Of a DNA stretch of 13,609 bases, positions 2,056-13,598 are shown piece by piece. Position numbers and translations under genes: made by a program. A model generated the notes under the pieces. The model had not been told where the DNA came from, ran no database searches, and was given only the letters and a program-made list of their open reading frames with translations. The stretch covers positions 1-13,609 of the forward strand of contig JACMQR010000195.1 of assembly GCA_014376885.1 (NCBI GenBank), written 5' to 3'. Positions within the stretch are counted from its first letter, which is position 1. Every line of letters begins with the position of its first letter. The stretch comes from Polaromonas sp. Lineage in GTDB: Bacteria; Pseudomonadota; Gammaproteobacteria; Burkholderiales; Burkholderiaceae_C.

Positions 2056-3750
2056 TTATAGCGTTTTTTTCAATGCGCCCTGGGTGATTGCCGACAGCGT
2101 GCCGCGCGTGGTGATGACCTCCGGGTCCAGTGTGACCTCGATCACGGTGCCCTCGGGCCGGGCCAGCGCGGCCAGCAACTCGGCCTCGAACTGCGCCGTG
2201 CGGCTGATGCGCACGCCGGCATAGCCATAGGCGCGCGCCAGGGCCGCAAAGTCCGGATTATTCAGCCGGGAGCCGCTCTCGTGCCGTGGAAACTGCTTTT
2301 CCTGGTGCATGCGGATGGTGCCGTACATGCCGTTGTTCAGCAGCACGATGATGCTTTTCGCACCATGCTGCACGGCTGTGGCCAGTTCCTGGCCGTTCAT
2401 CAAAAAGTCGCCATCGCCGGCGATGGTGAAGGCCACGCGCCCGGTCGTGATGGCCGCGGCAATGCCCGCCGGCACGCCGTAGCCCATCGCGCCAACCGTC
2501 GGCGCCAGCTGGGTTTTAAAGCCTTTGGCCAGCCCGTGGTGCCGGTAAAAGCGGTGCAACCAGCTGGCGAAATTGCCCGCGCCGTTGGTCAGCACTGCGT
2601 CCGCCGGCAAATGGCGCTGCACCAGGCCAATGAGGGCCGGCATGTCAATGTCGCCGGGCAGCGATTGCGGCTGCAGGTTGGCCAGGTAGTCGGCGTTGGC
2701 GGCGGCAGTCCAGGCTTGCCAGGGCACCGACAGTGGCGCGGCCAGCACTTCGAGCGACCGGGCGGCGGCATTCATGGTGGCGTTGATCGCCAGGTCGGCC
2801 TGAAACACCCGGTTGAGTTCTTCGGCGCTGGCGTGGATGTGCACCAGCTTTTGCTTGGGCCGGGGCGCTTCGATCAGGGTGTAGCTGCCGGTCGTCATTT
2901 CGCCCAGGCGCGGGCCGATGGCGATGATCAGGTCGCTGGCTTTTACCCGGGCCGCCAGCGCCGGATTCAGGCCGATGCCGACATCGCCGGCATACAGCAG
3001 GTGGTGGTTGTCAAACGTGTCCTGGAAACGGAACGCATTGCCCACCGGCAGCTGCCAGTTTTCGGCAAAGCGCTGCAGCGCCTGCGCTGCTTGCGGCGTC
3101 CAGCCGCCGCCGCCGGCAATCACCAGCGGCTGCCGGGACGCCAGCAGCAGCTCGCGCAGCGTGCGCAGCGCGCCCGGGTCGCTCCAGGCCTGCACCGGCT
3201 CAACACGCGCCAAAGGCGACGCCGAAGTCATGCGCGTCAGCATGTCTTCGGGCAGCACCAGCACCACCGGCCCGGGCCGGCCGTTCATTGCCGTAGCAAA
3301 GGCGCGCGCGACATATTCAGGGATGCGGTCAGCGTCGTCGATGCGCTCGACGCGCTTGGCAAAGCCTTTCGTGCTGGGGCCGAAAAAGCTCGAATAGTCG
3401 ACTTCCTGAAAGGCTTCCCGGTCGCGGCAGTCGCTGGCCACGTCGCCGACCAGCAGCACCATGGGCGTCGAATCCTGAAAGGCGGTGTGCACGCCAATGG
3501 ACGCATTGGTGGCGCCCGGCCCGCGGGTAACCATGCACACGCCGGGGCGGCCGGTGAGCTTGCCGTGGGCTTCGGCCATGAAAGCCGCCCCGCCCTCCTG
3601 GCGACAGGTGATGAAGCGGATCTGGTCCTGCCGGGCATGCAGGCCGTCGAGTACCGCCAGGTAGCTTTCGCCCGGAACGCCGAAGGCGTGGGTGACGCCC
3701 TGACCGATCAGGCAGTCGACCAAAAGATGTCCGGCAAGTTGTGAAGTCAT
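2056..3750 (-). CDS. Thiamine diphosphate-dependent enzyme, acetolactate synthase-like
   Basis: This 564-residue protein belongs to the thiamine-diphosphate (ThDP) decarboxylase/acetolactate synthase superfamily. The N-terminal PYR domain has FGVPGES (23-29) and RQEGGAAFMAEAHGK, whose Glu52 is the conserved glutamate that activates ThDP. RGPGATN follows. A central domain spans about 190-330. The C-terminal PP domain has the ThDP/Mg motif beginning GDGDFLMNGQE at 445 and ending in NN at 472-473. I chose the ATG at 3750 (MTSQLAGHLL) because it starts where family members start; a start at 3807 would add 19 atypical residues. No strong ribosome binding site precedes it. There is no regulatory small-subunit gene next to it, so a role in branched-chain amino acid synthesis is not supported. 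It lies 71 bp downstream of the acidic-protein gene and may share its transcript. The superfamily is certain; substrate (2-oxo acid, glyoxylate, benzoylformate-like or other) is open. Confidence 0.9.
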   Translation of the reverse strand: MTSQLAGHLLVDCLIGQGVTHAFGVPGESYLAVLDGLHARQDQIRFITCRQEGGAAFMAEAHGKLTGRPGVCMVTRGPGATNASIGVHTAFQDSTPMVLLVGDVASDCRDREAFQEVDYSSFFGPSTKGFAKRVERIDDADRIPEYVARAFATAMNGRPGPVVLVLPEDMLTRMTSASPLARVEPVQAWSDPGALRTLRELLLASRQPLVIAGGGGWTPQAAQALQRFAENWQLPVGNAFRFQDTFDNHHLLYAGDVGIGLNPALAARVKASDLIIAIGPRLGEMTTGSYTLIEAPRPKQKLVHIHASAEELNRVFQADLAINATMNAAARSLEVLAAPLSVPWQAWTAAANADYLANLQPQSLPGDIDMPALIGLVQRHLPADAVLTNGAGNFASWLHRFYRHHGLAKGFKTQLAPTVGAMGYGVPAGIAAAITTGRVAFTIAGDGDFLMNGQELATAVQHGAKSIIVLLNNGMYGTIRMHQEKQFPRHESGSRLNNPDFAALARAYGYAGVRISRTAQFEAELLAALARPEGTVIEVTLDPEVITTRGTLSAITQGALKKTL

Positions 3751-3821
3751 GCCGTGATTGTGCCCGCGCAGGCCGGCCCGCAGGCTGCGCCGGGCGGCGC
3801 CCAGCAAGGGGAGCTTCGGGC

Positions 3822-4224: not shown

Positions 4225-6723
4225 CTAGGCCGGCGCTTGCCCTGGCGGCGCTGGCGCGGGTGGCGCTGGCGGATCGAGCGCCCTGTCAGGCAGCTCCCGC
4301 AGCACCAGGCCCGCCGGCCTGAGCAGCGAGATACCGGCTTCACGCAGGTGCCGGAGCACCTCGAACAGCAAGGCGCTGCGAACGCCGTAGGCGGTGCGCG
4401 GCGAGTTGACGAACGCAGTGGCGTTGAACACCATGCCGGCGCTGTCGATGCTGTCAAGCTGCACGCTCGGCTCGGGGTCTTTCAGCACCTCGGCATGCGC
4501 GGCGAAGACATCCAGCATCAGGCGGCGCACCTGGTCGGCATCGGCGGCCAGCGGCACCGGCAGCAAGATCTTCACCAGCCCGAGCGGGTTGGCATGCGTG
4601 ACATTGCGCACCGTCTTGGTGATGAACTCCGAATTCGGAACGATCACCGTCGAGCGGTCGCCCATCTGGATTTCGGTGGCGCGCACATTGATGCGCCGGA
4701 TGTCGCCCTCGATGCCGCCCAGCGACACCCAGTCGCCGACCTTGACCGGCTTTTCGGCCAGCATGATGATGCCCGAGACAAAGTTCTGCACCACCGCCTG
4801 CAAGCCAAAACCGATGCCCACCGACAAGGCGCTGGCCACCCACGCGATGCGCTCCAGGCCAATGCCCACGGCGGCCAGGCCGAGCGACAGCGCCAGGATG
4901 TTGCCGGCATAGGCCACCAGCGTGGCCGTCCAGACCTGCATACCGGCGTCCAGCGAGGTGGTGGGCAAGAAATCCTCTTTCAGCCAGCGCCTGACGATGC
5001 GCACACCGGCCAGGCACACGGTGATGACCAACACCGCCTGCAACAACGCCACCGGAACAATCTGGAAGGCACCGAGTGAAACGCCCTGGTGGAGCTTGTC
5101 GGCGCGCTCGAAAAGCTCGGACGGCCCCTCGCCGAAGGGCGCCAGCAGCAGCAGCAGCGTGACCACCACCACCAGCAGCCGGCCGGCGCCCGACAGCAGC
5201 ACTGCCGCCTGGGCCCGAATCCTGAGAAAGCTGGCTGTGGAAAGATCGCCCGCGCCAGGCACCGCTGCACCGTCAGCATCCGGGAAAGCGCCTGGCGCCG
5301 GCGCCAGCAGCGTGGTGAAGCCGTCGTCCACCAGCACCGCCAGCAGGTAGGCCGAGCCCAGCACCACCGCCACCCAGGCGATCTGGTGGACCACAAAGCT
5401 GCCCAGCGCCACATAGCCGAGCAGCAAGGCCAGCCCGCTGCCGGCCGTGCCCAACCAGGCCAGACTGACCAGGCTCGTCAGCCACAGCGGGCTGGCCGGC
5501 CATTTCGCCGCGCCCGGCGGGTCGCGCAGCGCCTGGCGGCGCAGCAGGTCGGTGCGCAGCAAAGCCAGCCCCAGGGCCACCACCATGGCCAGGGCGATGA
5601 TGCAGTCGGCCGCCACCGTGGTGACCAAGCTGGCATTGATCTGGCCGGTCAGCTGCACGACCGCCCAGGTCAGCACCATCATCAACGCCAGAAATGGCGG
5701 CAGCCAGCGCAGACTCAGCGCAACTTGGTCCGGCAACGGCAGCAGGCGCCAGGACGGGCGGGTCGGCAGCAGCAAGGCATGCCCCAGGCCAATGACATAG
5801 CCGCCAAAACACAACACGCCCGCCAGCCGGCTGACCAGCGGCGCCAGCGCCTCGGGCAGGGGCGCTGCCCAGACCAGCCCGAGGTAAAGCGCCTCGGCCG
5901 CCAGGCCGGCGGTCAGGGTCGGCAGCAGCACCCGTGTCCAGGCATGCAGCGAGCGGCGCAAGCGGCCCGGCGGCACCCGGGTGGTGGTCAGCCTAAGCAG
6001 CGCCTGCCCGGCCCACCAATGCAGGCCAACAAGCACCAGCACCAGCAAGCCCACGCTGGCCCAGACGCGGGCGCCGCTGGCCTGCGCGGCGGCCGACAGC
6101 GCACCGAACAAAGTTTTAGCGCGCTGCAGGTCGGCGGGCAGGTCCGTTTTCAGTTCGGTCCAGAACACGCTGCTCATGATCGAGGCGGTCCGCTCGCCCA
6201 GCCGGGCCTGGAATTCGGAGCGCCGCAGCGCCGAGATGGCGTCTGCGGTCTGCTCGCTTTCCACCGCCAGCACCCGGGCGCGCTTGAGTTGGGCGTCGAG
6301 TTCGGCGCGAGCCTTGTTCAGCTGGGTCCGCAACACCGCCACCTCGGGCGCTTCCAGCTGTCCGGGCGTGACCGGGCCCAGTTCATTGAGCCGCGCCTGA
6401 AGGCTGGCGAGCTGCGGCTCCAGCACGGCGGCCGCGGCATCGGCCTGGGCGCCGGCGCCCAGCACCTGGGCGCGCAAGGGCAGCAGGCCGGCCGGATCCT
6501 TGGGCGGCTTGTCGATGAATTTTCGCGCCTGGTCGATCTGCTGGCGCGCCGTGTCCAGCGAGCCGTCGATGTTGTCCGGCTGGGCCCGGGCACTGAGCGC
6601 CGCCAGCGCCAGCAGCAGGCCCACCGCCGCGCCGCGCAGCAGCCGGCGAAAACCAGGCAAGGCATGGGAAGATTCAGCGAAACACGCAGGTCGCTGGCTG
6701 GGGCAAGGCAGGAAAATTCGCAT
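4225..6723 (-). CDS. Large MscS-family mechanosensitive channel (DUF3772-like N-terminus)
   Basis: This 832-residue inner-membrane protein should act as a tension-gated channel that releases solutes on hypo-osmotic shock. A signal peptide is visible: Arg-rich n-region at 26-30, hydrophobic core 31-43, probable cleavage after ARA at 45-47. The periplasmic part (about 48-215) is Ala/Gln-rich and helical, resembling the DUF3772 region of large MscS proteins. About ten hydrophobic segments follow, near 220-240, 263-287, 297-320, 337-360, 366-389, 413-437, 439-466, 507-530, 552-576 and 598-622. The MscS core begins with the pore helix region SVGIGFGLQAVVQNFVSG (634-651), then AEKPVKVGDWV (656-666), the beta domain with IVPNSEF (694-700), and a C-terminal alpha/beta domain to about 810. 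Residues 815-832 form a Pro/Ala tail. The start at 6723 lacks a strong ribosome binding site but puts the signal peptide in place. The MFS gene ends 100 bp upstream. Assignment to the MscS superfamily is secure; the exact subfamily is less so. Confidence 0.93.
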   Translation of the reverse strand: MRIFLPCPSQRPACFAESSHALPGFRRLLRGAAVGLLLALAALSARAQPDNIDGSLDTARQQIDQARKFIDKPPKDPAGLLPLRAQVLGAGAQADAAAAVLEPQLASLQARLNELGPVTPGQLEAPEVAVLRTQLNKARAELDAQLKRARVLAVESEQTADAISALRRSEFQARLGERTASIMSSVFWTELKTDLPADLQRAKTLFGALSAAAQASGARVWASVGLLVLVLVGLHWWAGQALLRLTTTRVPPGRLRRSLHAWTRVLLPTLTAGLAAEALYLGLVWAAPLPEALAPLVSRLAGVLCFGGYVIGLGHALLLPTRPSWRLLPLPDQVALSLRWLPPFLALMMVLTWAVVQLTGQINASLVTTVAADCIIALAMVVALGLALLRTDLLRRQALRDPPGAAKWPASPLWLTSLVSLAWLGTAGSGLALLLGYVALGSFVVHQIAWVAVVLGSAYLLAVLVDDGFTTLLAPAPGAFPDADGAAVPGAGDLSTASFLRIRAQAAVLLSGAGRLLVVVVTLLLLLAPFGEGPSELFERADKLHQGVSLGAFQIVPVALLQAVLVITVCLAGVRIVRRWLKEDFLPTTSLDAGMQVWTATLVAYAGNILALSLGLAAVGIGLERIAWVASALSVGIGFGLQAVVQNFVSGIIMLAEKPVKVGDWVSLGGIEGDIRRINVRATEIQMGDRSTVIVPNSEFITKTVRNVTHANPLGLVKILLPVPLAADADQVRRLMLDVFAAHAEVLKDPEPSVQLDSIDSAGMVFNATAFVNSPRTAYGVRSALLFEVLRHLREAGISLLRPAGLVLRELPDRALDPPAPPAPAPPGQAPA

Positions 6724-6823: not shown

Positions 6824-7987
6824 TCAGGCTGTCGCCGGCGCGCCGCGGCGCACCCGGCACACGTTGAAGGCGCTGGCAACCAGCACGCCTTGCGTGAGCG
6901 CCAGGCCCAGCAGCACGCCCCGGTACTGCCCATGGTCCATCAGCGCGCCGAAGACCAGCGGCGACACCGCCTGGCCGATGTCCAGACCGGCATACACCAC
7001 GCCATACACCCGGCCCGACGCGTTTTCGGGCGTTGACCGCTTGACCAGCAGGTCGCGCGACGGCCCGGCCATGCCCGAGGCAAACCCCATCAGGCCAAAC
7101 AGCACCGGCACCATCCAGGGCGGCGGGCTGCCCAGGGCCAGCACCAGGCCCAGCACCAGGGCCATCAGCGCCGCCGCGCCAAAACCGGCGCCTACGATGC
7201 GCTCGCAGCGCGACAGATCGGCCGCCAGAAAGCCCCCCAGCACCATGCTCCCGGCCGCGCAGGCCATGTACACCGTCAGGCACACCGCCACCAGGCTCAG
7301 GTCCATGCCGTGCAGCTGGCGCGCCGCTTCCGGCGCAAATGCCTGCACCACGCTGAGCACGATGGCATTCCAGAAGAAAAATGCAAAGCACATCCACACG
7401 GCGGGAATCTTCAGGAAATCCAGGTCGCCGCCCGCGGCCTTGACGTCCGGCGCCGGCGCGGCGGGCCTGAGCGCCAGATGGTCCCGCTGCAGCAGCAGCC
7501 CGAACAGCACCGCGAACACCAGCACGCCGGCTGCCGCCAGCGCAATGCGCCAGGAAAAAGCCAGCGTCAGGGACACCACCAGCGCCGGCGCCAGCGCCCA
7601 GCCCAGGCTGCCGGTGATGCCGTGCACGCTATAGGCATGGCCTAGCCAGGCAGCGCTGACCTTGCGGTTGAGCAGCGTGTAGTCAGCCGGATGGAACACG
7701 CCGTTGCCCAGGCCGCCAAACAGGATTGGCCGCGGGCCGAAACGGTCCACCCAAAAGCCCGACAGCGCCTGCACCGCGCAGGACACCACAAAAAAGATGC
7801 TCATCAGCAACCCGAGCCGCGCATAGCTGACCTCGAACGCGTCCTTGAGCCAGGGAAACAGCGGCGCGAGCAGCAGCTGGCTAAAATGGCTGGTCATGTG
7901 CGCGATGCCGACCAGGCCGATCAGCCGAATGTCGCTGCGCGCCGACGCTATATCGGCCGATGGGTCCGGTAGGGGGACGGTGGTCAT
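6824..7987 (-). CDS. MFS transporter, apparently lacking TM3
   Basis: This 387-residue major facilitator superfamily permease should move a small molecule across the inner membrane; the substrate is unknown, and the GNGVFHPADYTLLN signature resembles fosmidomycin-resistance-type (Fsr-like) members. TM1 lies near 21-45 and TM2 near 54-77. Motif A between TM2 and TM3 is GFWVDRFGPR (77-86). The sequence then runs ILFGGLGNGVFHP with no room for TM3: about 25-30 residues expected between Gly92 and Gly94 are absent. Helices then follow near 116-140, 146-167, 193-215, 228-252, 263-286, 289-307, 328-349 and 357-376. I chose the ATG at 7987 (MTTVPLPDPS); the frame stays open to 8362, but that extension is not permease-like. 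No strong ribosome binding site is seen. The gene is divergent from creA. The reading frame is intact, so it is not called a pseudogene, but transport may be lost. Confidence 0.88.
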   Translation of the reverse strand: MTTVPLPDPSADIASARSDIRLIGLVGIAHMTSHFSQLLLAPLFPWLKDAFEVSYARLGLLMSIFFVVSCAVQALSGFWVDRFGPRPILFGGLGNGVFHPADYTLLNRKVSAAWLGHAYSVHGITGSLGWALAPALVVSLTLAFSWRIALAAAGVLVFAVLFGLLLQRDHLALRPAAPAPDVKAAGGDLDFLKIPAVWMCFAFFFWNAIVLSVVQAFAPEAARQLHGMDLSLVAVCLTVYMACAAGSMVLGGFLAADLSRCERIVGAGFGAAALMALVLGLVLALGSPPPWMVPVLFGLMGFASGMAGPSRDLLVKRSTPENASGRVYGVVYAGLDIGQAVSPLVFGALMDHGQYRGVLLGLALTQGVLVASAFNVCRVRRGAPATA

Positions 7988-8010
7988 TGAACTACTGTAA
8001 TACCGGCGCG

Positions 8011-8037
8011 GGCCCGGCCCGGCCCGGCCCGGCCCGG
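8011..8037. repeat. GGCCC pentanucleotide tandem repeat (five units)
   Basis: Five exact copies of GGCCC run from 8011 to 8035, followed by GG. The tract lies in the 222-bp divergent region between the MFS gene (starting 24 bp away) and creA. It is self-complementary, so it can fold back on itself, and short tandem units of this kind can change copy number by slippage. The rest of the divergent region (8038-8209) holds no recognisable gene; CGGATAAT at 8131-8138 could contain a -10 for creA. Confidence 0.8.
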
Positions 8038-8209
8038 AGATTTTGACCGGCGACCCATGAAACGGTGCCCGATACCCGGCGCCATCACATTGCCGGCCAC
8101 CCCGACCAGCCGCTGGCAAACTGTCCGCACCGGATAATCGGCAGTGCCGGCGCGGGTGCCTCATGGGCCCGCGCCGCCCCCCTTTCAGCCGCATCTTCAA
8201 GGAAACCAC

Positions 8210-8728
8210 ATGCAAACCGTCAGCGCGCCCTCGTTTCGCCGCTTCGGCCCCTTGGGCCACTGCGCCCTGGCCGCCGCCCTGCTCTTGGGCGGCTGCGCGC
8301 CCTCCGGCGCTGAGGAAATCGGCGCGGTCGATACCGTTTTCAAGTTCATCGGCCCGGACCACAAGATCGTGGTCGACGCCTATGACGACCCGAAAGTCGC
8401 CGGCGTGACCTGCTATGTGTCGCGCGCCAAGACCGGCGGCGTCAAGGGTGCTCTAGGCCTGGCCGAAGACAAGGCCGAGGCATCGATTGCCTGCCGCCAG
8501 ACCGGCGCCATCAGCTTTGTCGGCGGCAAGCCGCTGGACCGGCAGGAGGAAATGTTCAGCGAGCGGATTTCGCTGGTCTTCAAAAAACTGCGGGTGGTGC
8601 GCATGGTCGATGCCAAGCGAAACACCCTGGTCTACCTCACCTATTCAGACCGGGTGATCGAAGGCTCGCCGCAAAACAGCGTCACTGCCGTGCCGGTGCC
8701 GGCCGGAACGGTCATTCCACTGAAGTAG
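8210..8728 (+). CDS. creA: CreA family protein, putative lipoprotein
   Basis: CreA (PF05981) is a conserved exported protein of unknown biochemical function; in E. coli it heads the creABCD operon. This 172-residue copy has a signal sequence with hydrophobic core 18-27 and a lipobox LGGC whose Cys29 would be lipidated, with Ala30 at +2 suggesting the outer membrane. The mature part follows the family from [17 protein letters not shown], with two cysteines at 68 (VTCYVS) and 95 (IACRQTG) that could pair in the periplasm, and ends near [11 protein letters not shown]. The ATG at 8210 is preceded by AAGGA at seven bases and matches the expected signal sequence; a start at 8144 would bury it. No creB, creC or creD gene is in the window. 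The synthetase gene follows 84 bp later on the same strand. Confidence 0.93.
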
Positions 8729-8812: not shown

Positions 8813-11800
8813 ATGGTCCTAACGGATAATTGGGAACAGCCCGGCTGTTGGGTTCCTTTTGGGCACATGCTTTTTATGATTCCTTTTCCCGTCGCCGGTC
8901 TACTGAACCCACTGCACCTGCTGGCCAGCGACCCGTCCGGGCCTGCCGAGCATCCGGACATCTTGTCCGGGCCGATCAGGCCCGACTTGGTACGCGCCGA
9001 AGTGCTGGCTGATATTCTCGAAGCCACCGCCGCCCGGATTCCGCAGCAGGTGGCGCTGATCTTCGCCGAGCGGCAGCTGACCTACCAGGCGCTGAGCGAG
9101 CAGGCGGACCAGGTGGCGTCGCACCTGATCGCGGCCGGCGTGCGCCCCGGGCACATCATCGGCCTGTGGCTGCCGCGCGGCATCGACCTGCTGGTCATGC
9201 AGGCGGGCATTGCCAAGGCCGGCGGCGCCTGGCTGCCGTTTGATGCAGACACGCCGGTCGAGCGGATCGCCGTTTGCCTGAACGACGCTGGCGCGCTGGG
9301 CGTGGTCAGCTGCGAGGAATTTACACCGCGCCTGGTGGGCGTTGACATAGGCCACGGCGCCCGCGTCTGGACCGCCGAAGCGCTGCTGGTTTGCGCGCCC
9401 GAGCCGCTTCGCCGGCAGGGCTTGCTGCCAGCGCATCCGGCATACGTCATCTATACCTCGGGATCGACCGGCAAGCCCAAGGGCATTGAAATCACCCAGG
9501 CCAGCATCTGCCACTTTCTGCGCAGCGAAAACGCCCTGCTGGGCGTGCGGGAAACCGACCGGGTGTACCAGGGTTTTTCCGTCGCCTTTGACATGTCGTT
9601 CGAGGAGATCTGGATCAGTTACCTGGCCGGCGCCACGCTGTGGCTGGCCCCGAAGAACGTGGCGTCCGACCCGGAAGCGCTGCCCCGGGCGTTGATTGAC
9701 AACCGGCTCACCGTGCTGCACGCAGTGCCAACGCTGCTGGCCCTGTTCGGCTCGGATGTGCCCGGCCTGCGCCTGATCAACCTGGGCGGCGAGATGTGCC
9801 CAGAAGCGCTGGTGGCGCGCTGGGCCAGCCCCGGCAGGCAGCTGTTCAACACCTACGGCCCGACCGAAGCCACGGTCTCGGCCAGCCTGGCCGAGTTGCA
9901 CGCCGGCGAGCCGGTGACCATCGGCCGGCCGCTGCCCAATTACCGGCTGATGGTGATCAACCCGGCACTCGAAAGTGGCCTGCAGTTGCTGGCGCGCGGC
10001 GAGATTGGCGAGCTGTGCATCACCGGCCCCGGCGTGGCGGCCGGCTACCTGGGCCGGCCCGAACTGACGGCAGAAAAATTCCTGCCCAACCCCTGGCGCA
10101 GCCACGCCCATGACGAGCGCCTGTACCGCACCGGCGACCTGGCCCGGATCGATGCCGACGGCCGCGTTCAGTGCCTTGGGCGCACCGACGACCAGGTCAA
10201 GATTCGTGGGTTTCGGGTCGAACTCGGCGAAATCGAAGCCGCGTTGACCCGCCAGCCCGGCGTTGGCACGGCGGCCGTCGTGCTGCGCCAGGAGCAGGGA
10301 ATCGACCAGCTGATCGCTTTTTTGGTGCTGGAGAGCGGCGTTGCCGGCTCAGCCAGCGCGCTGCGGGCCGCCCTGACGGCCAGCCTTCCCGGCTATATGG
10401 TGCCCGGCTACTTCGAGCCGCTGGACGCCATGCCGCGCCTGACCTCCGGCAAGATCGACCGCAATGCCCTCAAGGCGCGCGCGCTGCGGGCGGCCACCGG
10501 CGAGTCGGGCGCTTCGGACCTGGCGCAAACGCCGGCGGAAGAAGTTTTGTTCGCCGCCTTGGCAAAACTGTTTCCCGGCCAGCCGATCGTTCGCAGCGCC
10601 GACTTTTTCTCCGACCTGGGCGGCCATTCGCTGTTTGCGGCCCGGCTTGCCTCGGCGCTGCGAGCCGACCCGCGCTTTGCCCACATCACGGTGCATGCGA
10701 TCTATGAAAACCGACGGGTCGGCCGCATTGCCGAGGTGCTGGGCCAGGCACCTGAAGCCAGCCAGCCGGTCGACACCGCCTGGGCACCGCCGTCGCGCCT
10801 CAAGCGCTGGACCTGCGGCGCGGCGCAGGCGGCGGTCGTGCCGTTTTTGGTGGCGCTGCACATGGCCCAGTGGATGGCGCCGTTTTTCACCTACCATTTC
10901 TTCACCGGTGACCCGGGAGACTCGATCACCCTGGCCATCGCGGCGGCGGTCGGCGCGTTTTTGCTGTCCACGCTGATGGAGTTTGCGGTGGCCATTGCCG
11001 GTAAGTGGCTGATTGCCGGGCGCTTGAAGGCCGGACGCTACCCGCTGTGGGGCTGGGTGTACTACCGCTGGTGGCTGGCCGACCGGCTGGTCGAAGCAGC
11101 GCCAACCTATCTGCTCAGCGGCTCGTCGATGTATGCCTGGTGGCTGCGGGCACTGGGTGCCAAGGTGGGGCGCGATGTCACCATCGGCTCGATCACTCTG
11201 CGCGCGCCGGAGCTGCTTAGCCTCGGCGACGGCGTGAGCATTGGCAATGCCGTCAACTTTGAAAACGCCCGGGTCGAGCACGGCCAGCTGCGCCTGGGCG
11301 CGATCAGCCTGGAGCGCGAAGCCGGCGTCGGCTCCTATGCGGTTCTGGAAGGCAACACCCGCATCGGCGCCTTCGGCCATCTCGAAGGCCAGTCGGCCCT
11401 GAGCGACGGCCAGGCGCTGCCGGCCGGGCGCATCTGGAAAGGCTCGCCGGCCCTGGACATCGGTGCATTCGAGCGGGCCGGCCGGCCCGCGCGGCCGGTG
11501 GTTTCGCGGCGGCGCAGCCTGCTCGAAGGCAGCTACTTTGTGCTCGGCGCCCTGCTCATCACCACCTTGTTTTTCCTGCCGGTGTTTCCCAGCTTCATCC
11601 TGATCGACTGGATCGACGACAGCGAAGGCTTGAGCGCGCTGAACAACAGCGGACTGGCGTTTCAGCTGGCCAAGTATTTTGTGCTGGCCTTTCCGGCCAC
11701 CGGGCTGCTGATTGTCTGCACCGTGCTGCTGTCGGCCGGCATCCGCTGGAGCGTGCTGCCGCGCCTCAAGCCGGGCAGCTGGCCGGTGCACAGCAACCTG

Positions 11801-12943
11801 TACTGCGCCAAATGGCTGGTCAGCCAGATCCAGGAGTCCAGCCTGGCGGTGCTGCACGGCGTGTACGCCACGGTGTATGCGCCGCTGTGGTACCGGCTGC
11901 TGGGCGCCAAGGTCGGGCGCGATGCCGAGATTTCCTCGGCCCTCGGGCTGGTGCCCGACATGCTCACCCTGGGCGATGAGACCTTCATTGCCGATGCGGT
12001 CATGCTGGGCGACGAAAGCATCGACGGCGGCTGGATGTCCATGCAGCCGACGGTGATTTCCCGGCGCAGCTTCGTGGGCAACGGCGCGTACATTCCCGAC
12101 GGCACCACGCTCCCGGAAAATGTGCTGATCGGCGTGCATTCCAGCGCGCCGGCCAACGACCAGATGAACAGCGGCGACACCTGGCTCGGCTCGCCGCCGA
12201 TCAACCTGCCGGCCCGCGAGCAGACCAGCGGATTTCCTGAGCATCTGACCTACCGGCCGTCGCTTTTTCGGCGCCTGGCGCGCGGCCTGATCGAGGCCTT
12301 TCGCATCGTCGCGCCGCATGCCATCGTGACCTCCGTGGGCTACACGGTGGTGCTGAACACCATGCCGCTGGCCGACGCGGGCCAATGGGGCAGCGTTGTG
12401 CTGTACCTCACCGGCGCGGGTCTTTTCTATGGGGTGGGCACTTTCATTTTCATTGCCGCCATCAAATGGTCAATGATGGGGCGCTACCGCAAATGCAGCG
12501 TGCCGATGTGGACTCCGTTCGTCTGGCTGTCCGAGGGCGTGACCAATTTGTACGAAGGCATTGCCGTGCCAAACTTTCTGCGCTACCTGCGCGGTACGCC
12601 CTGGCTGCCAGTGGCGCTGAACTGCCTGGGCTGCCGCATCGGCCGGGGCGTTTACCTGGACACCACCGACATGACCGAATTCGACTGCGTCAGCATTGGC
12701 GACTTTAGCGAGCTCAATGGCCTGGCGTGCCCGCAGACCCACCTGTTTGAAGACCGGGTGATGAAGGTTGACCATGTCACCATCGGCAAGCGCGTTTACA
12801 TGGGGCCGCGCAGCGCGGTTCTTTATAGCGCGGTGGTGGCAGACGATGCCCAGCTCGGCGCCCTGACTCTGGTAATGAAGGGCGAGTTCATTCCCCCGGC
12901 ATCGAGCTGGAAAGGATGCCCGGCAGCGCCAGCCCGGCACTGA
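8813..12943 (+). CDS. Pls/PosA-type membrane NRPS, predicted poly-amino-acid synthetase
   Basis: This 1376-residue protein matches the layout of epsilon-poly-L-lysine synthetase (Pls): one module that activates an amino acid and polymerises it at the membrane. The adenylation domain (about 60-560) has YTSGSTGKPKG (214-224), NTYGPTEA (346-353), YRTGD (438-442) and TSGKIDRN (544-551). The thiolation domain has DLGGHSL, with Ser606 taking phosphopantetheine. Six hydrophobic segments follow in pairs, near 671-692, 703-730, 905-930, 952-976, 1163-1186 and 1192-1218. Each pair precedes a hexapeptide-like domain: C1 (about 743-900), C2 (978-1135) and C3 (1218-1376). These carry the recurring LGAKVGRD / LGAKVGRD / LGCRIGRG and end in WKGSPA / WLGSPP / WKGCPA. 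In Pls these domains make the amide bond without a classical condensation domain; no thioesterase is present. The start is uncertain: ATGs at 8813, 8867 and 8876 are all in frame and none has a good ribosome binding site. The gene is coupled to the transferase downstream. The product amino acid is unknown. Confidence 0.93.
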   Translation: MVLTDNWEQPGCWVPFGHMLFMIPFPVAGLLNPLHLLASDPSGPAEHPDILSGPIRPDLVRAEVLADILEATAARIPQQVALIFAERQLTYQALSEQADQVASHLIAAGVRPGHIIGLWLPRGIDLLVMQAGIAKAGGAWLPFDADTPVERIAVCLNDAGALGVVSCEEFTPRLVGVDIGHGARVWTAEALLVCAPEPLRRQGLLPAHPAYVIYTSGSTGKPKGIEITQASICHFLRSENALLGVRETDRVYQGFSVAFDMSFEEIWISYLAGATLWLAPKNVASDPEALPRALIDNRLTVLHAVPTLLALFGSDVPGLRLINLGGEMCPEALVARWASPGRQLFNTYGPTEATVSASLAELHAGEPVTIGRPLPNYRLMVINPALESGLQLLARGEIGELCITGPGVAAGYLGRPELTAEKFLPNPWRSHAHDERLYRTGDLARIDADGRVQCLGRTDDQVKIRGFRVELGEIEAALTRQPGVGTAAVVLRQEQGIDQLIAFLVLESGVAGSASALRAALTASLPGYMVPGYFEPLDAMPRLTSGKIDRNALKARALRAATGESGASDLAQTPAEEVLFAALAKLFPGQPIVRSADFFSDLGGHSLFAARLASALRADPRFAHITVHAIYENRRVGRIAEVLGQAPEASQPVDTAWAPPSRLKRWTCGAAQAAVVPFLVALHMAQWMAPFFTYHFFTGDPGDSITLAIAAAVGAFLLSTLMEFAVAIAGKWLIAGRLKAGRYPLWGWVYYRWWLADRLVEAAPTYLLSGSSMYAWWLRALGAKVGRDVTIGSITLRAPELLSLGDGVSIGNAVNFENARVEHGQLRLGAISLEREAGVGSYAVLEGNTRIGAFGHLEGQSALSDGQALPAGRIWKGSPALDIGAFERAGRPARPVVSRRRSLLEGSYFVLGALLITTLFFLPVFPSFILIDWIDDSEGLSALNNSGLAFQLAKYFVLAFPATGLLIVCTVLLSAGIRWSVLPRLKPGSWPVHSNLYCAKWLVSQIQESSLAVLHGVYATVYAPLWYRLLGAKVGRDAEISSALGLVPDMLTLGDETFIADAVMLGDESIDGGWMSMQPTVISRRSFVGNGAYIPDGTTLPENVLIGVHSSAPANDQMNSGDTWLGSPPINLPAREQTSGFPEHLTYRPSLFRRLARGLIEAFRIVAPHAIVTSVGYTVVLNTMPLADAGQWGSVVLYLTGAGLFYGVGTFIFIAAIKWSMMGRYRKCSVPMWTPFVWLSEGVTNLYEGIAVPNFLRYLRGTPWLPVALNCLGCRIGRGVYLDTTDMTEFDCVSIGDFSELNGLACPQTHLFEDRVMKVDHVTIGKRVYMGPRSAVLYSAVVADDAQLGALTLVMKGEFIPPASSWKGCPAAPARH
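8835..8849. promoter_or_regulatory. Operator-like palindrome at the synthetase 5' end
   Basis: AACAGCC (8835-8841) and GGCTGTT (8843-8849) are perfect inverted 7-base arms around one C. A -10-like GATAAT lies at 8825-8830. If translation starts at 8867 or 8876 this palindrome falls between promoter and start and could be a repressor site or leader hairpin; if it starts at 8813 it is merely coding sequence. No partner regulator gene is in the window. Confidence 0.35.
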
Positions 12944-12944
12944 C

Positions 12945-13598
12945 ATGCGCGCCGCGCCAGCGACCGTGGCGGTCCACGCCTGGCCGCAGCAAAGGGCGCT
13001 GGCGGTCAGGGCCCTTGGCTCGGGATCGGGCCTGGCGGTCATTGGCATTGCAACGCCTGTGCCCCATGACCGGCAGCTGGCCAGACAGCTTGTTCGTGAC
13101 GCGTTGCGTCAGCTGCTCGGGCAGTTCCTTGACCAGCCAGCGGCAGCACTGGCGCTGGTCTCCCAGCCCGGCCAGGCGGTTGCGCTCAATTTTCCGGGCT
13201 CGCAATTGCGCCTGTCGGTCAGCCACATGCCTGGCCTGAGCGTGGCGGCGGTCAGCAACTGGTTTGCCGTGGGCGTGGATGTGATGGCGGTCGACGGGCT
13301 TGCCAGCGATATGCCTGACTGGGCGCAGGTGGCGCTGGACTACCTGGGGCCGGTCCAGGCAGCCCTGCTGCACCGCACCGTGCCCGCTGGCCGCCCTGCT
13401 GCCTTTGCCCGCGCATGGACCCGCCACGAGGCCGGACTGAAATGCTGCCGTCGCGCGCTGACCGAATGGACGCCAGCCCTGGCCAATCTGCTGGCCAGCT
13501 GCCAGGAGATGGCCTTGAGCCTGCCGGATGGCTGCTGCGGGACTGTGGCGATCGGCTGGCCGGTTGCGGGACAGACGGTCAATTCACCAACAAATTAA
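12945..13598 (+). CDS. 4'-phosphopantetheinyl transferase, Sfp-like
   Basis: The 217-residue protein should transfer 4'-phosphopantetheine from CoA to the serine of a carrier domain, most likely Ser606 of the synthetase just upstream. The signature blocks are LRLSVSHMPG (88-97, with His94), GVDVM (110-114, with metal-binding Asp112) and FARAWTRHEAGLK (154-166, with Glu162 and Lys166), matching the SxSH, GxDxE and W-x-x-x-E-x-x-x-K blocks of Sfp-type enzymes. The usual Glu two residues after the first Asp is Met114. Length agrees with the family. The ATG lies one base after the synthetase stop (TGA-C-ATG), with no strong ribosome binding site of its own, so translation is probably coupled. The C-terminus beyond about 185 is not conserved to my eye. 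The last 11 bases of the window hold AGCGGAG, which could be a ribosome binding site for a following gene. The family call is good though the sequence is divergent. Confidence 0.87.
   Translation: MRAAPATVAVHAWPQQRALAVRALGSGSGLAVIGIATPVPHDRQLARQLVRDALRQLLGQFLDQPAAALALVSQPGQAVALNFPGSQLRLSVSHMPGLSVAAVSNWFAVGVDVMAVDGLASDMPDWAQVALDYLGPVQAALLHRTVPAGRPAAFARAWTRHEAGLKCCRRALTEWTPALANLLASCQEMALSLPDGCCGTVAIGWPVAGQTVNSPTN

Follow-up and report, generated by a model that had tools for sequence, protein, structure and literature searches.

Which product does the gene pair at the end of this contig make, and is the locus of a kind not described before? The window, meaning the whole 13,609-nucleotide stretch of Polaromonas sp. 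DNA that was analyzed, ends with a synthetase gene and the gene for a phosphopantetheinyl transferase (PPTase). A first-pass annotation had presented the two open reading frames (ORFs), which are indeed present at 8813-12943 and 12945-13598, as a candidate undescribed Pls-like locus for poly-amino-acid synthesis. The locus very probably encodes a delta-poly-L-ornithine synthetase of the PosA type and a PPTase of its own that would activate the carrier domain. Behind this reading stand the domain content, family, pocket identity, tree placement and conserved PPTase pairing, each of which was directly observed. The features are as follows.

8813..12943, + strand: posA-like gene, Pls/PosA family NRPS, 1,376 aa as the ORF from the first ATG (TIGR02353, TIGR01733, 54.3% identity to A. 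baumannii PosA)
9017..10480, + strand: adenylation (A) domain, residues ~69-556 (PF00501, PF13193; PDB 8g95)
10520..10747, + strand: carrier (T) domain, residues ~570-645, phosphopantetheine Ser606 (motif DLGGHSLF; helical in the model)
10823..12925, + strand: TIGR02353 terminal domain, three units, each with a membrane helix pair and a left-handed beta-helix (profile, AlphaFold2 model)
12731..12757, + strand: residues 1307-1315 of the third beta-helix, a candidate catalytic stretch (Q1308 and H1310, both in 91 of 91 rows; putative catalysis)
12945..13598, + strand: Sfp/HetI-like 4'-phosphopantetheinyl transferase, 217 aa (PF01648, NF042922, motif residues, conserved neighbor)

The synthetase and its family

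The posA-like ORF runs as a single full-length open frame and retains its motifs. Its start at 8813 is probably too early, because the invariant alignment columns shared with relatives begin at residue 47 and the public gene call for the protein (P0001) begins at residue 31; the true start probably lies further in, at the ATG at 8876 or at residue 31. The TIGR02353 model ("Pls/PosA family NRPS") scored 847.9 bits over residues 671-1371 (model positions 2-695 of 695) and 850.4 bits in the genome search, about twice its curated cut-off of 423.1, and TIGR01733 scored 397.6 bits at residues 90-489 (cut-off 317.4). Pfam returned AMP-binding (PF00501), AMP-binding_C (PF13193) and sub-threshold Hexapep matches and nothing else, with no condensation, thioesterase or PP-binding model reported at 1e-3. 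The carrier motif DLGGHSLF lies at residues 601-608, and its Ser606 is kept in all 91 family rows of the alignment. With the AlphaFold2 model described below, these results bear out the architecture proposed at first pass: A, T and three units of two helices and a hexapeptide-like domain, with neither condensation nor thioesterase domain. In the genome searched (2,594,256 bases in 401 contigs, 78.46% complete), only the A domain of the posA-like gene exceeded the NRPS A-domain cut-off. Promoter-like sites numbered 1 (0.4 in shuffles) and terminator-like sites 3 (4.2 in shuffles).

The closest characterized system is PosA of Acinetobacter baumannii (PMC10522769; PDB 8G95-8G98), which likewise has the A-T-terminal domain layout and, in the available text of that paper, an identical pocket code. 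We treated an A. baumannii gene (L105; 943.4 bits to 8g95 over all 412 A-core residues) as PosA because no difference was visible in that alignment. The Polaromonas synthetase is 54.3% identical to it over 97% of the length, and 53% identical over the aligned part of the terminal domain. In a quick maximum-likelihood search with SH-aLRT supports only, comprising 31 of the 91 rows (two of them long-branched) and no characterized full-length Pls, PosA and 21 other rows, including the Polaromonas synthetase, formed one branch with support 100. Almost all rows of this branch come from Betaproteobacteria or Pseudomonas; Azospirillum and Rhizobium sit next to it. The profile score and this placement beside PosA also support the expectation, voiced at first pass, that a polymer is likely formed. 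The epsilon-poly-L-lysine synthetase Pls of Streptomyces albulus has the architecture in common, according to the available text of PMC10522769, but its A domain (PDB 7WEW) is far less similar to ours, at 260.8 bits versus 529.2 for PosA.

The protein search returned 4,016 proteins with E <=0.001 among 7,991 candidates scored. Of 87 genomes of the genus, 10 had a TIGR02353 match over cut-off, as did 16 of 300 genomes from the order; both figures include the genome itself, and the second may be low because at most three candidates were scored per genome. The distribution is thus patchy in genus and order. The same search gave matches in 13 of 14 control genomes, over cut-off in one; the sub-cut-off matches look like other hexapeptide proteins. 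Among the best 80 of at least 520 relatives, the nearest named copy is that of Polaromonas glacialis (84%), and Polaromonas sp. CG_9.7 carries a copy at 15558-19598. Two other copies deserve mention. A contig labeled Candidatus Eremiobacterota (L058, 2810-7554) encodes a 70% identical synthetase with the PPTase gene upstream instead of downstream, through either wrong binning or transfer, and the match to a same-genus copy (L007, 3027-6976) is split in two inside the A domain, through either a gene break or an assembly error.

The description of the locus as undescribed does not survive these comparisons. Its pocket code is that of characterized PosA, 17 of the 120 listed homologues are already named Pls/PosA family (most others are nameless), and PosA homologues are described in many phyla in the available text of PMC10522769. 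A Burkholderiales gene is also in print: the NAPAA-type NRPS of Ottowia thiooxydans, which has A and PCP domains and a terminal domain like that of Pls/PosA (PMC13291983, available text); it sits in a hybrid PKS-NRPS-PUFA cluster and is likened here by its description only. Novelty of the locus is therefore not supported; what remains is modest, namely a conserved co-encoded PPTase and a set of candidate catalytic residues.

The adjoining PPTase and the neighboring genes

The PPTase gene follows the synthetase gene after 1 bp. Its Pfam ACPS (PF01648) match is weak, at 24.2 bits (cut-off 25) and 25.4 bits in the genome search, and NF042922 (HetI) scored 33.2 bits, below its cut-off of 370. The protein carries GxD and W...E...K, which we take to be the Sfp-type motif residues: G110, D112, W158 and E162 are present in 55 of 55 rows and K166 in 54, after 8 of 63 rows were dropped as over-long ORFs. 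A PDB search with the PPTase gave no match at E up to 1. Two other PPTase-family genes lie elsewhere in the genome.

To compare loci across relatives, as the first pass had advised, we used the best 80 of at least 520 relatives, named, with up to 10 kb on each side and in some far less, so that the sample leans towards near kin. A BLAST match to the PPTase adjoined the synthetase in 62 of these best 80 loci (63 of 81 with the Polaromonas locus). A strict downstream filter combined with a profile gave 60 of 80 (61 of 81), the difference being L067, in which a longer overlapping frame terminates in the PPTase, and L058, where the PPTase is directly upstream; homology clustering placed it in 61 of the named loci, or 62 with the Polaromonas locus. 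The match was absent from 18 of the best 80, five of them Collimonas, and in 10 of those 18 one nearby downstream ORF each was scanned, none being a PPTase. Among ten loci from a plasmid collection, an annotated PPTase directly follows the synthetase, as in Polaromonas, in Rhizobium, Sphingomonas and Shinella, whose synthetases are 33-39% identical to ours and differ in pocket code. In the other seven a PPTase was neither annotated nor detected (two carry no annotation there), an absence that is uncertain because our profile failed to pick up the PPTase annotated in Sphingomonas.

The synthetase-PPTase pair is thus conserved among relatives, and the adjoining PPTase would probably serve the synthetase. 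Adjacency is not needed, given the two other genomic PPTase genes and the A. baumannii locus, where posA is reported as a single-gene operon (PMC10522769, available text) and, unlike in Polaromonas, a PPTase beside the gene was neither annotated nor detected. We found no description of the pairing in the literature searched, which took in the available text of PMC10522769.

The first pass had also read the locus as a synthetase and its transferase with no tailoring genes. This agrees with the relatives and stands for the visible part only, as only 11 bases of contig follow the PPTase stop codon and gene content downstream is not visible in the window. Nor is a minimal locus new, since a lone synthetase gene is reported for A. 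baumannii in the available text of PMC10522769; pls of S. albulus shares a 4-bp overlap with the degradase gene pldII (PMC4361855, available text). In three relatives, the genes beside the pair encode an aminotransferase (L025), a pyrroline-5-carboxylate reductase (L026) and a protein with no Pfam match (L030), and no tailoring gene was common to the three. The reductase gene, in a Rhodoferax relative, lies after the pair on the opposite strand (14721-15566); a link to ornithine-proline metabolism is possible and was seen in this one of the three loci checked. A search for other conserved neighbors, in which ORFs 110 aa or longer and no more than 7 kb from the synthetase were grouped, gave at least 30 clusters. 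One of these, overlying the PPTase on the opposite strand in 17 loci, is probably a shadow ORF and was set aside, and the other clusters listed were in at most 13 loci each.

Upstream, the window carries genes for a polyphosphate kinase 1 (PPK; 1-1944, - strand, cut by the contig start; TIGR03705, 773.5 bits), a thiamine pyrophosphate enzyme of acetolactate synthase type (2056-3807, - strand; NF006052, 786.2 bits), a large mechanosensitive channel protein of MscS/MscM type with DUF3772 (4225-6723, - strand) and an MFS transporter (6824-8362, - strand; PF07690, 110.4 bits), the true start of which lies further in because the listed ORF overlaps creA. The gene immediately preceding that of the synthetase, in the same orientation, encodes a CreA-family protein (8144-8728, + strand). 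Beside the synthetases of the best 80 of at least 520 relatives, CreA, the transporter, the channel protein and PPK had no match at 1e-4, and the thiamine pyrophosphate enzyme had only 29% matches, in four Collimonas loci. A tie between a polycation and the polyphosphate kinase was considered and dropped, as PPK matched in 0 of these best 80 loci.

Fold and conservation of the terminal domain

Residues 570-1376 were modeled with AlphaFold2 from an alignment of 64 rows; the best model had a mean pLDDT of 87.3 and a pTM of 0.87 (pLDDT 75.0-87.3 over five models). The prediction has long helix pairs at residues ~662-734, ~899-980 and ~1151-1222, with a beta-helix after every pair (at about 790-890, 1030-1140 and 1270-1376); each of the three units thus comprises two membrane helices and a beta-helix. 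A hydropathy scan was less clear, with two overlapping segments before the sites of units one and two each and one segment only in the third. The first beta-helix has fold matches to hexapeptide acetyltransferases, in a VIA-align list that covers mainly this part (model residues 166-323). When the terminal domain was searched against the PDB, 16 weak matches to beta-helices came back (best E 8.2e-5), none bearing the name of a Pls enzyme.

Conservation is unevenly spread over these units. When 16 divergent rows out of the 91 were compared, the third beta-helix had 13 invariant positions out of 115, the second 12 out of 121 and the first 6 out of 121, with 0-1 per membrane helix pair. His1310, Gln1308, Glu1289, Glu1358, Asp1061, Arg1085 and Asn1090 are identical in 91 of 91 rows. 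This concentration of invariant positions suggests that the active centre lies in beta-helix units two and three, His1310 being likely central to the candidate polymerizing centre; the conservation of His1310 may instead be structural. A 2013 study may reportedly already bear on where the active centre lies. The PosA paper leaves the polymerization chemistry open in its available text (PMC10522769).

Predicted product and alternatives

The pocket of the Polaromonas synthetase consists of D260, M261, E264, H303, N323, G325, T347, V355, S356 and K547 (DMEHNGTVSK), and all ten residues equal the PosA code printed in the available text of PMC10522769, where Asp217, Glu221, Thr304 and Ser313 of PosA are said to matter for ornithine and lysine enzymes to have Ala in place of the pocket Met. 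In the PDB, the A domain of PosA itself matches best (8g95; 528.9 bits, residues 49-459). The code was found in 80 of 91 rows, these being the Polaromonas gene, A. baumannii PosA and 78 of the best 80 of at least 520 relatives, the remaining two of which (L041, L103) deviate at one position. Nine plasmid-collection rows bear other codes, the nearest being DMEHNGTVTK of Sphingomonas.

Substrate, polymer, linkage and chain length are predicted here by analogy with characterized PosA, which is also the source of the adenylation, loading and chain-growth steps through isopeptide bonds given here (PMC10522769, available text). The PPTase would load the phosphopantetheine arm onto Ser606. The A domain would adenylate L-ornithine, with Asp260 and Glu264 binding both amines, and would then load it onto this arm. 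The membrane-embedded three-unit beta-helix domain would repeatedly join the ornithine carboxylate to the next delta-amine, giving a short cationic isopeptide chain. PosA made chains of 7-12 ornithine units in vitro (PMC10522769, available text), and at 54% identity the Polaromonas chains could be of another length. Delta-linked ornithine oligomers are thus a more specific reading than the minimal homopolymer or short oligomer first suggested.

It is unlikely, in our judgment, that the same class of enzyme yields another product here, be it poly-lysine, poly-diaminobutyrate, a polymer of D-ornithine or a chain whose length differs clearly. PosA does activate D-ornithine nearly as well as L-ornithine, and lysine weakly (PMC10522769, Table 1, available text), but it made no lysine polymer according to the same text, all ten pocket residues are those of PosA, and rows with the codes DAESIGTVVK, DFE... 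or DLED... branch outside the PosA clade. Less probable still is a terminal domain that transfers ornithine to another acceptor, such as a lipid, glycan or small molecule, without polymerization. The acyltransferases that the first beta-helix resembles act on sugars or amino acids, and the long paired helices look membrane-embedded in the model, features that would suit such a role; the terminal domain is nonetheless 53% identical to that of PosA, which polymerized ornithine in vitro (PMC10522769, available text). We consider it highly improbable that this genome carries the synthetase gene only as a remnant or a silent copy: the patchy occurrence in the genus and a genus relative matched in two pieces (G003) would fit decay, but both synthetase and PPTase frames are open, the synthetase motifs are in place, and identity to intact relatives is 75-84%.

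The PosA-type poly-ornithine reading would extend a characterized antifungal oligomer pathway to environmental Burkholderiales; we found no poly-ornithine study and no biochemistry of family members for Betaproteobacteria in the literature searched. A broader proposal, tentative and to us somewhat short of an even chance, is that Burkholderiales, Pseudomonas and some Alphaproteobacteria carry an ornithine-type synthetase and dedicated PPTase as a two-gene unit, in which polymerization takes place in beta-helix units two and three around His1310 and the first unit is structural. If true, the polymer would be makeable wherever the pair goes. The picture of the Pls/PosA family is unchanged by these findings; the co-encoded PPTase may help activate the synthetase in vitro, and the conservation map offers a short list of candidate residues for the polymerization chemistry.
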